Shown: one piece after another, positions 1,727-44,232 of the stretch | Layout: each line of letters opens with the position of its first letter | Numbering within the stretch: the first letter of the stretch is position 1 | Source: Deltaproteobacteria bacterium | Lineage (GTDB): Bacteria > UBA10199 > JACPAL01 | Length of the DNA: 64,000 bases | Direction of reading: 5' to 3' | Assembly (NCBI GenBank): GCA_016180845.1 | Contig: JACPAK010000002.1 | Location: 1 to 64,000 of the forward strand | Translations under genes and position numbers: made by a program | The notes under the pieces: model-generated | Databases searched by the model: none | What the model was told of the DNA's origin: nothing | The model's input: the letters and a program-made list of their open reading frames with translations, nothing else

Positions 1727-3171
1727 GGTTGTGGAGAAGTGACCGAAAGGGGAGTTTTTGACCGAAGTGCATTTTTCGCGAGCGTCATTCCTACTTCCCA
1801 TGTCGCCCCGGGGAACTTGTGGCAATCCGCTACAACTTTTTCAAATGACTTCAGAAAATAATCAACGTCTTCGTCGCTGATAATAAGAGGCGGCAAAAAC
1901 TTCACAAGGTCGATATTATGTCCCGCCACCTGACTCAAGATCCGATGATTCGCCATGAGTGGGACGACGATCATCTGACCAAAGAGCCCTTTATTAGCGG
2001 CATGGATCATCTTCCAGGCCGCCTTGAGCTTTAAGGATTTAGGTTCGTGGAATTCCACACCAAACATCAGCCCCTTTCCGCGTACCTCTTTGAACATTTC
2101 ATAATTCTGTCCGATCTCACGAAGCCTTGAAATCATCTTTTCCCCGAGACTCGTTGCCTTTTCCGGGAGTTTTTCATCTTCCATCATCTGAAGGGTTGCC
2201 AATCCGCAGGCCATCGCAAGATTGTTTTTCCCAAAACTGTTGGAGTGGACGACGCAGCGATCCATGCGCGAAAAGATCTTTTTGTAAATTTCGCGTCGAT
2301 AGAGGATCGCACCGACCGGGGTAAAACCACCGGAAAGGGTTTTGGCGATACAGACAATATCCGGTTCGAGATTCCAGTGTTGATAGGCGAACCATTTTCC
2401 CGTCCGTCCGAGCCCTGCCTGGACCTCATCGGCAATGAAGAGCGTGCCGTATTTTCTACAGAGCCTCTGTGCCTCCGGGAGGAACTTCTCCTCAGGGAGA
2501 TAAAGACCTTTTCCCTGGATCGGTTCGAAGATGAAGGCGGCACAGTCCCCCTTTTTGAGTTCATGCTCAAGGATCGTCAGATCATTGAGTGGAATCGCGC
2601 TTGCTGGGAGCAGCTCTCCAAATCCATCTCGGAACTCCGCATTTCCGTTCACGGAGAGCGAGCCAAGCGTCAGTCCATGAAACGAGTGATCGAGGTAGAG
2701 GATCCGGTTGCGACCAGTCGCACCACGCGCAAACTTGAGTGCCCCTTCGACCGCCTCTGTTCCGGAGTTCGTGAAAAAGACGGTATCGAGCTGTTTTGAC
2801 GTCAGTGAGACCAATTTTTCCGCGAGCAGCCCCGAGAGGAGGGAGCAGTCCATCTGGACCAGCTGCGAGAGATCGAGGTCGAGCAGCTCTCGAATCGTCT
2901 CTTTAATGTGCGGATGATTCCGGCCGATCCCAAAAACTCCGTAGCCGGAAAGAAAGTCGAGATAGCGATTTCCCTCACCATCATAGAGGTATTGCCCCCC
3001 AGCCTTTTTATAGACCTTATCGAAGCCGATGGTTCGAAGCACTTTCACAAACTGGGGATTGACATACTGCTCATGCAGCTCGTAATTCTCGCCCCATCGC
3101 TCTTCGATCAACTTCTTGAGGGAAAAAGACATGTGGTGGTGGGTAACATTTATCATTATCGTTTGCAACAT
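1723..3171 (-). CDS. class III (aspartate aminotransferase family) PLP-dependent aminotransferase
   Basis: Fold-type I aminotransferase of class III, the group containing ornithine, acetylornithine, 4-aminobutyrate and putrescine aminotransferases. The sequence shows the cofactor region NSGTEAVEGALKFAR, the aromatic stacking motif DHSFHGLTLG, the conserved IADEVQAGLGRTG, and AKTLSGGF with the Schiff-base lysine near residue 277. The family's usual length is 400-460, so 482 is slightly long. The amino donor cannot be told from the sequence. The start is uncertain: ATG codons lie at 3171, 3156 and 3132 and none has a clear Shine-Dalgarno; the last (MSFSLKKL) best matches family length. It is transcribed away from a structured RNA candidate 180-380 bases upstream, so a long structured leader is possible. 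It converges with the partial gene at 2-1726. Confidence 0.88.
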   Translation of the reverse strand: MLQTIMINVTHHHMSFSLKKLIEERWGENYELHEQYVNPQFVKVLRTIGFDKVYKKAGGQYLYDGEGNRYLDFLSGYGVFGIGRNHPHIKETIRELLDLDLSQLVQMDCSLLSGLLAEKLVSLTSKQLDTVFFTNSGTEAVEGALKFARGATGRNRILYLDHSFHGLTLGSLSVNGNAEFRDGFGELLPASAIPLNDLTILEHELKKGDCAAFIFEPIQGKGLYLPEEKFLPEAQRLCRKYGTLFIADEVQAGLGRTGKWFAYQHWNLEPDIVCIAKTLSGGFTPVGAILYRREIYKKIFSRMDRCVVHSNSFGKNNLAMACGLATLQMMEDEKLPEKATSLGEKMISRLREIGQNYEMFKEVRGKGLMFGVEFHEPKSLKLKAAWKMIHAANKGLFGQMIVVPLMANHRILSQVAGHNIDLVKFLPPLIISDEDVDYFLKSFEKVVADCHKFPGATWEVGMTLAKNALRSKTPLSVTSPQP

Positions 3172-3253
3172 GCCGATGCTGTCAGAGGGTTTCTTTCAAA
3201 AACCTTCGCGACACACGTCGCTCGCGTTTACGCACGCTCGCGCGTTCCTTCTC

Positions 3254-3289
3254 GGCCGTCGTGGCATTCTGAGCATGGAGACGACGGCC
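3254..3289. repeat. GC-rich hairpin in the aminotransferase leader
   Basis: GGCCGTCGT at 3254-3262 pairs perfectly with ACGACGGCC at 3281-3289 around an 18-base loop. It lies in the 178-base stretch between the structured RNA and the aminotransferase start. That stretch also has short alternating motifs of the type CGCTCGCG (3210-3245). No convincing ORF covers it. It could be a terminator-like or anti-terminator stem on the minus strand, but no T-tract follows. Confidence 0.5.
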
Positions 3290-3349
3290 TCCGAAAGGTC
3301 GCGTTCAGTTTTCTCAAGAAATCCCTCCGATCGCTCGTCATCAATTTTT

Positions 3350-3511
3350 GCTGACGGCACGATCTTGTGGAGAGGTCTGAGAACCAGGAGTCCTGCGATC
3401 GGAATCAAGTTGTTGCAGGGGGACCCTGTAGCCTTCACAGGGTGGAACCTGCCAAGCAATCACGACGCAGGCGAGTTTTCGAAGACCTCGGAAGAAGGTC
3501 ATGCCGTCAGC
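3350..3511 (-). ncRNA. structured RNA candidate, copy 1 (rod-like, 6S-like architecture)
   Basis: The minus strand folds into one long interrupted rod. P1 pairs GCTGACGGCA (3511-3502) with TGCCGTCAGC (3359-3350). P2 pairs GAGGTCT with AGACCTC. Then comes an 11/12-base bubble, P3 CCTGCG/CGCAGG, a second bubble, P4 GCAGG/CCTGC, and P5 ACCCTGT/ACAGGGT with loop GAAGGCT. P2 and the bubble sequences recur in a second intergenic element at 42248-42410, with a compensatory change in P2. The length of about 160 bases, closing stem and central bubble recall 6S RNA; that family name is a guess from shape, not a sequence match I can verify. The SRP GGAAGGAAGC loop and RNase P signatures are absent. The strand is chosen because an extended -10 box lies just upstream. 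A leader element of the downstream aminotransferase is the main alternative. Confidence 0.5.
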
Positions 3512-3512
3512 C

Positions 3513-3521
3513 ATGATAACA
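3513..3521 (-). promoter_or_regulatory. extended -10 promoter box for the structured RNA at 3350-3511
   Basis: The minus strand reads TGTTATCAT: a TGn extension plus a -10 hexamer matching TATAAT at five of six positions. A start 6-7 bases on would fall inside the first stem of the RNA. No good -35 hexamer is visible, as is normal for extended -10 promoters. Confidence 0.4.
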
Positions 3522-3568
3522 AATGCCCCCTCGCCGACCTCCCACCCCCGCCCAATCGATCCGCCGAC

Positions 3569-4240
3569 ATGCCGGCCTTGATCAGGTCTCTGCAAGAGGT
3601 TGGGATCAATACAGGAGATGGGGAGCTGTATGAGATTTTTGAGGGGAAGCCGCAGAAGACGAAGATGGAGCAGTTTTTCCAGCTCCTCTACCTGATTCAA
3701 GAGCAGAAGAAGGATCAGTTGCCGGTCACGGTGACTCGCCCAAAAATTACGGAGATCTTGTTGGCGGCAAAAGTTTTTACCGATCGCTCATTTCCCGATC
3801 AGATTGCATCAGTAACCTTGGACCGATCTGAAGGAAAAGACCGATCACGGTATCAGGTGCGATTCGATGCCGAAGAGGTCCGATTTCCTCTCAATCAGGG
3901 AATTGGGTTCGCGGTTTGGGATCATGGGATGTGCCAGCATGCCCAGGAGATTGTCCTCTACGATGGTTTTAATTTTGAGCTGAAAAAATCAGGGAAAAAT
4001 CTTGTCGTTGATGATTTCGAGAAGGTAGAGGCGTTTGGTAAATTTGGGAATCGTGGAATTTTCGATATTGATATCAATTATGCCGAATTTGAGCGGGTCG
4101 AGTTTATTGCCGGGACGGATGAGGGGAAGGTGAAGTCTCGCGTCTCGCATCGGGAGTTCGCAACGAACCCGCATTCATTTCTGTTTAAATTTGTGGGACG
4201 GCTGATTCCCGATACATCACGACAGAGGATTGACTGGTGA
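3569..4240 (+). CDS. hypothetical protein
   Basis: The frame is open from 3116, but the first 150 codons run through the RNA element and low-quality Pro/Arg/Ser-rich sequence. The first plausible start is therefore ATG at 3569 (MPALIRSLQEVG), giving 223 residues. No Shine-Dalgarno is visible, so the start is uncertain. I do not recognise the family. A charged helical N-terminal part (residues 1-60, with MEQFFQLLYLIQEQ) is followed by a beta-rich region of alternating hydrophobic and acidic residues. There is no signal peptide or membrane segment, so a cytoplasmic protein is likely. The ferredoxin-Hsp20 gene follows after 41 bases on the same strand and may share its transcript. Confidence 0.6.
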   Translation: MPALIRSLQEVGINTGDGELYEIFEGKPQKTKMEQFFQLLYLIQEQKKDQLPVTVTRPKITEILLAAKVFTDRSFPDQIASVTLDRSEGKDRSRYQVRFDAEEVRFPLNQGIGFAVWDHGMCQHAQEIVLYDGFNFELKKSGKNLVVDDFEKVEAFGKFGNRGIFDIDINYAEFERVEFIAGTDEGKVKSRVSHREFATNPHSFLFKFVGRLIPDTSRQRIDW

Positions 4241-42247: not shown

Positions 42248-42410
42248 CAGTGAATCCCAAGTATTCTTTCGGAAGGTCCGAGAACCTGTTTGAGACCCAC
42301 CTTTGAAAGTGAGCGATTTCGCGGCGGGAAGCCTTGGACCAGAGCGAAATCGCGGAACAATGCCGGGCGAGTTTCGCAGGACCTGGAGAGAGAACACTTG
42401 GGGTTCACTG
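42248..42410 (-). ncRNA. structured RNA candidate, copy 2 (rod-like, 6S-like architecture)
   Basis: It fills the gap between hisF and hisI. A long closing stem pairs 42248-42279 with 42379-42410 (AGTGAA...TTCACT), interrupted by one A-C mismatch and a 3x3 internal loop. Then comes a large bubble of about 33 and 25 bases, and a perfect 10-bp terminal stem GCGATTTCGC/GCGAAATCGC (42313-42322 and 42343-42352). The closing-stem end and bubble match copy 1 at 3350-3511: AGGTC(T/C)GAGAACC and GGCGAGTTT on the plus strand, with a U-A to C-G compensatory change. On the minus strand TTTAAT, a five-of-six -10 box, overlaps the hisF stop just before the first stem. 6S RNA fits the shape; strand and family are not settled. 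Confidence 0.55.
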
Positions 42411-44160: not shown

Positions 44161-44232
44161 GCCACGGTAGCTCAGTGGTAGAGCAATCGCTTCGTAAGCG
44201 ATAGGTCGTCGGTTCAATCCCGACCCGTGGCT
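44161..44232 (+). tRNA. tRNA-Thr (anticodon CGT)
   Basis: Acceptor arms GCCACGG (44161-44167) and CCGTGGC (44225-44231) pair fully. The D arm is GCTCAGTGGTAGAGC, the anticodon loop TTCGTAA between ATCGC and GCGAT gives CGU, and the T arm is GTCGGTTCAATCCCGAC. The discriminator base is T and CCA is not encoded. The anticodon reads ACG (Thr). Confidence 0.95.

Follow-up and report, generated by a model that had tools for sequence, protein, structure and literature searches.

Two rod-like hairpins of a deltaproteobacterial contig belong to a multicopy palindromic family with a core that recurs in many bacterial phyla

Introduction

The window, that is, the whole 64,000-nucleotide stretch of DNA analyzed here, contains two rod-like elements of about 162 nt, and the question is what kind of element they are. 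The first-pass annotation regarded them as a structured, covarying, possibly new two-copy family, and suggested a duplicated regulatory RNA, possibly similar to 6S RNA. We considered the fold, copy number, distribution, genomic context, and evolution of the elements, and compared them with known dispersed repeats and structured RNAs.

Results

Two Elements of the Window

Both elements are found where that annotation had placed them, each with the closing stem, the bubble, and the shared motifs flanking it, and both folds are strongly stable compared to dinucleotide shuffles, none of 200 shuffles being as stable (the plus-strand folding energies are −81.4 and −70.7 kcal/mol for copy 1 and copy 2, respectively). 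The described swap of AGGTCT/AGACCT to AGGTCC/GGACCT, which keeps the pairing, is genuine as well. The features, all on the plus strand, are the following.

3350–3511, plus strand: copy 1, whole hairpin element (fold z −6.0; covariance model match at 3363–3498, E 1.3e-18)
3350–3359, plus strand: copy 1, 5′ arm of the outer stem, GCTGACGGCA, paired with 3502–3511 in the minimum-energy fold
3502–3511, plus strand: copy 1, 3′ arm of the outer stem, TGCCGTCAGC, paired with 3350–3359 in the minimum-energy fold
3374–3385, plus strand: copy 1, 5′ strand of the core, GGTCTGAGAACC, the core side conserved across all copies
3470–3487, plus strand: copy 1, 3′ strand of the core, GGCGAGTTTTCGAAGACC, from the two-motif pattern and copy alignment
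3116–4240, plus strand: putative ORF through copy 1, 374 codons, of which 84 precede and 241 follow the element
42248–42410, plus strand: copy 2, whole hairpin element (fold z −5.1; covariance model match at 42264–42394, E 6.4e-34)
42248–42258 and about 42400–42410, plus strand: copy 2, outer stem, from sequence reading and the fold
42275–42294, plus strand: copy 2, 5′ strand of the core, GGTCCGAGAACCTGTTTGAG, from the two-motif pattern and copy alignment
42313–42353, plus strand: copy 2, apical hairpin, GCGATTTCGC/GCGAAATCGC, from the fold and copy alignment
42365–42384, plus strand: copy 2, 3′ strand of the core, GGGCGAGTTTCGCAGGACCT, from the two-motif pattern and copy alignment

The apical loop GGGAAGCCTTGGACC of copy 2 is common to most copies in this genome. 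Copy 2 is located in a 178-bp gap between hisF and hisI (genes assigned by NCBIfam), both on the minus strand, and thus their mRNA would hold the reverse complement of copy 2, the element being antisense to its own operon; a tRNA gene is located near the his genes, at 44161–44232 (Rfam scan). The ORF through copy 1 has no Pfam or NCBIfam match, and its 5′ part is only putatively coding.

Copy Number in the Genome and in Relatives

The two-motif pattern GAGAACCN{70,100}GGCGAGTTT has four matches in the genome, and the reversed pattern, used as a control, has none. The covariance model built from these four copies detects 11 copies in contigs C1, C2, C5, and C11, with E-values from 8e-35 to 8e-10; hence, with at least 11 copies, “two-copy family” was an undercount. 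The same model finds four copies in a genome of the same order and further ones in family f13, and none in the only same-family genome searched. Across the 46 genomes of the class the presence of the element is patchy, the maximum noted being 38 copies in Deltaproteobacteria bacterium RIFCSPHIGHO2_02_FULL_40_28 (L086, below G012). Exact-pattern matches to GAGAACC...GGCGAGTTT in relatives were set aside as not element-like.

Fold, Core, and Covariation

The common part of the copies is a nearly invariant, asymmetric internal loop, GAGGAC-TGTYTGAG...CGAGTTCCGCAG, between stems which vary from copy to copy yet are still paired. The cross-phylum consensus, derived from 56 core sequences, is [stem]-C-GAGGA-CTGTYTGA-[apical stem]-GAG-TTCC-GCA-G-[stem]; since these sequences were picked by an exact pattern, the core may look more invariant than it is. 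The loop version of the window’s genome is GAGAACC...GGCGAGTTTCG, where, in GAGAAC...GTTTCG, the inner core pair G–C is replaced by A–U with pairing retained.

When 14 copies of two genomes are aligned, 83% of the cells are paired, and in 37 out of 42 pairs the pairing is kept with both sides changed; the number of double-changed cells is 121, compared to 45 ± 5 in shuffled data and at most 60 with slid partners. Similarly, 56 cores from many phyla yield 93 double-changed cells, versus 30 in shuffled data and 12–29 with slid partners. The tandem G.A pairs beside the apical stem may resemble a kink-turn.

Two peculiarities of individual groups were also observed. In some copies (G012:C20:8475–8526 and similar; L212) the apical loop holds another repeat-like sequence, CCCTGAGCAAAGTCGAAGGG, as if it were a repeat within a repeat. 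In Lachnospiraceae (L050, L084, L097, L105) a second conserved loop, CTTAGYGA...GCGARYTTAG, apparently specific to this lineage, is present toward the rod’s outer end.

Strand Selected to Fold

Single mismatches inside strong helices were tallied in a way that favors neither G–U nor A–C. The G–U:A–C ratio is 59:18 in 134 elements from other phyla (9:15 in shuffles), 14:3 in 28 elements of the class, and 18:0 in 19 copies from G012; 30 6S RNAs treated likewise yield 5:2 at equal stringency and 11:2 with two flanking pairs. This excess indicates that selection acts on the folding of one strand, the plus strand of the window, be it in the form of RNA or of single-stranded DNA. A palindrome acting only in DNA was thus rejected: a loose count had looked symmetric, but stricter helices, compared with 6S RNAs and shuffled controls, yielded the one-strand excess. 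Covarying stems and a one-strand G–U excess, as in functional non-coding RNAs, are both present, and, given the strong covariation, the strand asymmetry, and no Rfam match, the description of a structured, covarying, possibly new family stands.

Distribution Across Bacteria

Scanning with the pattern CTGTYTGAN{6,36}GAGTTCCGCAG, one genome per species, yielded at least 120 matches, with Beta- and Gammaproteobacteria, Nitrospira, Lachnospiraceae, Coriobacteriia, Bacteroidota, Myxococcota, Omnitrophota, and several CPR lineages among the matches listed. The core recurs almost unchanged in Proteobacteria, Nitrospirota, Bacteroidota, Firmicutes, Coriobacteriia, and CPR; most of the 16 whole genomes searched have from 2 to 38 core copies, and none for the control pattern. 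The core query had no matches in E. coli, phage, or plasmid records; other matches to such carriers are limited to one Variovorax replicon, matched in part, and one viral contig.

Barnesiella has near-identical copies of about 190–230 bp with sharp edges, and Rhodocyclaceae have a unit of about 530 bp composed of two inverted rods and flanking hairpins.

L053:6752–7264, L118:1597–2124, L062:4050–4588, L122, L125, and L127: Rhodocyclaceae units of about 530 bp

These units are 74–88% identical between genomes, and their flanking hairpins contain TACTTTCTTTTG/CAAAAGAAAGTA. In Barnesiella (L220–L237), a pyrimidine-rich hairpin, CTTCTTGGTTCGTTCTTCTC...GAGAAGAATGAAC, follows the element on the folding strand and resembles the betaproteobacterial tail; further repeats, around ATATAGGGGAG...GAGAGGGGTT, are observed nearby. 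Close pairs of elements (Beta- and Gammaproteobacteria, family f13) are found only in the minus-then-plus arrangement.

Genomic Context and Orientation

The copies occupy scattered, unrelated chromosomal sites, mostly at the 3′ ends of genes. According to the ORF-based gene model, 30 copies are in convergent, 41 in co-directional, and five in divergent positions; the second gene model yields eight, 23, and one, respectively, in low-GC genomes, and equal convergent and divergent counts in GC-rich genomes, where ORF calls are poor. The excess of convergent sites also fits terminator-like elements. For 14 out of 18 copies in G012, the folding strand is also the strand of the gene upstream, and the element often starts within 60 nt of the gene end, whereas many copies in the window’s genome are antisense to their operon. 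A fixed sense orientation relative to genes is thus ruled out, as it differs between genomes. Neither do the copies favor the leading or the lagging strand (7:6 in one complete chromosome and 7:11 in G012).

Copies Inside Protein Genes

Five out of 11 copies are read through by an uninterrupted frame that extends at least 60 codons beyond the element on either side. Three of them fill the linker between two domains: in MutL, the DNA_mis_repair domain ends at residue 422, the element spans approximately residues 426–484, and MutL_C starts at 485; in PabB, the element takes approximately residues 128–184, the bordering domains ending at 129 and starting at 187; and in the fusion of radical SAM TIGR03960 with DUF2344, the element corresponds to residues 492–547, with DUF2344 starting at 549. 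The fourth in-frame copy follows an aldehyde dehydrogenase domain, and the fifth is copy 1, in the putative ORF. The same strand of the element is read in MutL and PabB, and the opposite one in the other two genes.

In orthologs, the linkers are shorter or different, e.g., about 18 residues in the radical SAM fusion of G001 compared to about 44 here, and the PabB linkers vary widely among relatives. Because interdomain linkers vary in relatives, it is no more than probable that these elements were inserted rather than having replaced earlier sequence.

Constraint at an Orthologous Locus

One locus with two elements is common to two species of one genus. The stems and core have three substitutions in 237 positions, compared to 25 in 133 positions of the apical inserts (Fisher p = 2e-9, with partition boundaries set after viewing the alignment); the spacer has six in 75 (p = 0.007), and the flanking gene, 26 in 792. 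As substitutions concentrate in the apical insert and largely spare the stems and core, the folded part has been kept after insertion, at least at this locus. Judging by sequence comparison, this suggests lasting constraint after insertion, and no other finding speaks as strongly for a role in the host or against the elements being pure junk.

Discussion

Dispersed Repeat or Host RNA

We are inclined to regard the two elements as copies of a dispersed palindromic hairpin repeat of the REP, MITE, or Rickettsia-palindromic-element kind, non-autonomous and spread in trans; this reading seems to us somewhat more probable than its negation. The number of copies, the patchy presence, the scattered sites, the copies in linkers, and the sharp-edged copies of Barnesiella are all explained by a dispersed, probably non-autonomous mobile repeat. 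An enzyme or a host factor acting in trans would spread the copies, and the putative mover would recognize the core in the folded form of one strand, either single-stranded DNA or an RNA intermediate; indeed, folding of one strand suggests that the moving or recognized form is single-stranded and that the core may be its recognition site. Insertions would persist where they are harmless, in convergent or 3′ intergenic gaps and in linkers left open in frame. We found no linked transposase or other mover, and visual inspection revealed no target-site duplication; the outer arms are inverted, yet each copy has arms of its own, and no partner transposon was recognized.

The orthologous locus also bears on another explanation, a structured RNA functional in the host, where the copies would be transcribed, alone or within 3′ UTRs, and the core, by binding a widely conserved protein, would act on mRNA 3′ ends or on a global RNA-binding factor. 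The constraint on the stems and core at orthologous sites, the folding confined to one strand, the near-invariance of the core across phyla, and the sense orientation of the folding strand to the upstream gene in 14 out of 18 copies of G012 all agree with such a function. We still consider it rather unlikely, as the orientation to genes varies between genomes, many copies here are antisense to the operon, coding sequences hold both orientations, and the presence among relatives is patchy.

A site for recombination or transposition in single-stranded DNA, served by an HUH (Y1/REP-type) enzyme or a tyrosine recombinase, as in REP/RAYT systems or integron attC sites, could account for hairpins that are strand-specific and keep conserved bases unpaired, for the constant arrangement of close inverted pairs, and for dispersal on the chromosome. 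It is distinctly improbable, since the genome, 98% complete, has no matches to the Y1 transposase domain (PF01797), replication strands are used without bias, cassette arrays are missing, and the attC core GTTRRRY is absent from the copies inspected.

Finally, a 6S-like promoter mimic binding RNA polymerase, suggested by the rod, the closing stem, and the central bubble, can practically be dismissed, as a genuine 6S RNA (RF00013) is encoded elsewhere in the genome (C10:8784–8973, E 1.4e-15, above the cut-off, distinct from both elements), neither element scores against 6S even at E ≤ 10, and several of the 11 copies lie inside genes. More generally, at least 11 copies, several of them in frame inside genes and in varying orientation, are better explained by a dispersed palindromic repeat than by a trans-acting regulator, and the proposal of a duplicated regulatory RNA is not retained.

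Dispersed palindromic repeats are usually lineage-specific. Here, the nearly invariant loop on varying stems might form a pan-bacterial module, recognized as folded RNA or single-stranded DNA by a conserved factor present all the way from Proteobacteria to CPR, pointing either to a new transposase-less or trans-mobilized way of spreading or to a general host function; we propose this only tentatively, as a rather unlikely reading.

Comparison With Known Systems

In Rfam 15, neither window element matched any family, 6S included, and no other copies or elements from other phyla had a match at the gathering score, weak low-score matches being the only ones; the likeness to 6S RNA is limited to the rod shape. 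No description was found in the text of the open literature searched by motif and concept; an unindexed earlier description is possible, given how common the motif is.

With REP/REPIN and RAYT systems, the family shares multicopy intergenic hairpins, often in close inverted pairs, but the window’s genome has no companion RAYT/Y1 transposase gene. REP hairpins are tens of nucleotides long, and thus the rods of about 160 nt are far longer.

Rickettsia palindromic elements, about 150 bp long, are also palindromic, present in many copies, and found both in intergenic regions and as in-frame insertions in unrelated genes (PMC10969869). Likewise, in-frame copies are seen here in unrelated genes (MutL, PabB, radical SAM/DUF2344, aldehyde dehydrogenase); compared by description, the families differ in that the former is reported from Rickettsia, whereas the latter spans many phyla and has an invariant loop core. 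Prokaryotic MITEs (ERIC, Chunjie, QMITE2) are similarly multicopy, intergenic, and shorter than 500 bp, with stable hairpin transcripts (PMC10969869), but in our family neither terminal inverted repeats of a known IS nor target duplications were recognized, and its conserved part is central rather than terminal. The beta-proteobacterial BRE is chromosomal, intergenic, multicopy, and not co-oriented with replication, and is set apart, by description, by its length of about 90 bp and frequent tandem arrangement (PMC3110155). Thus, in kind the family is close to REP, MITE, and Rickettsia palindromic elements, and is new in having a core common to many phyla and a folding strand that could be identified.

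One motif in many phyla with an identifiable folded strand provides a bait sequence for the protein that moves or uses the repeat. It also serves as a warning, as this hairpin repeat may lie behind spurious ORFs, and behind calls of “new ncRNA”, in many genomes. In-frame palindromic insertions in genes, known from Rickettsia (PMC10969869), now have probable counterparts at domain linkers outside this genus.

The PabB linkers of relatives (L277, L279, L281) and that of a radical SAM protein (L019) contain peptides resembling translated dispersed repeats (PPLPPLQKGGGG, PPSPPFVKGGPEGI), which suggests that several repeat families share linkers as hot spots.
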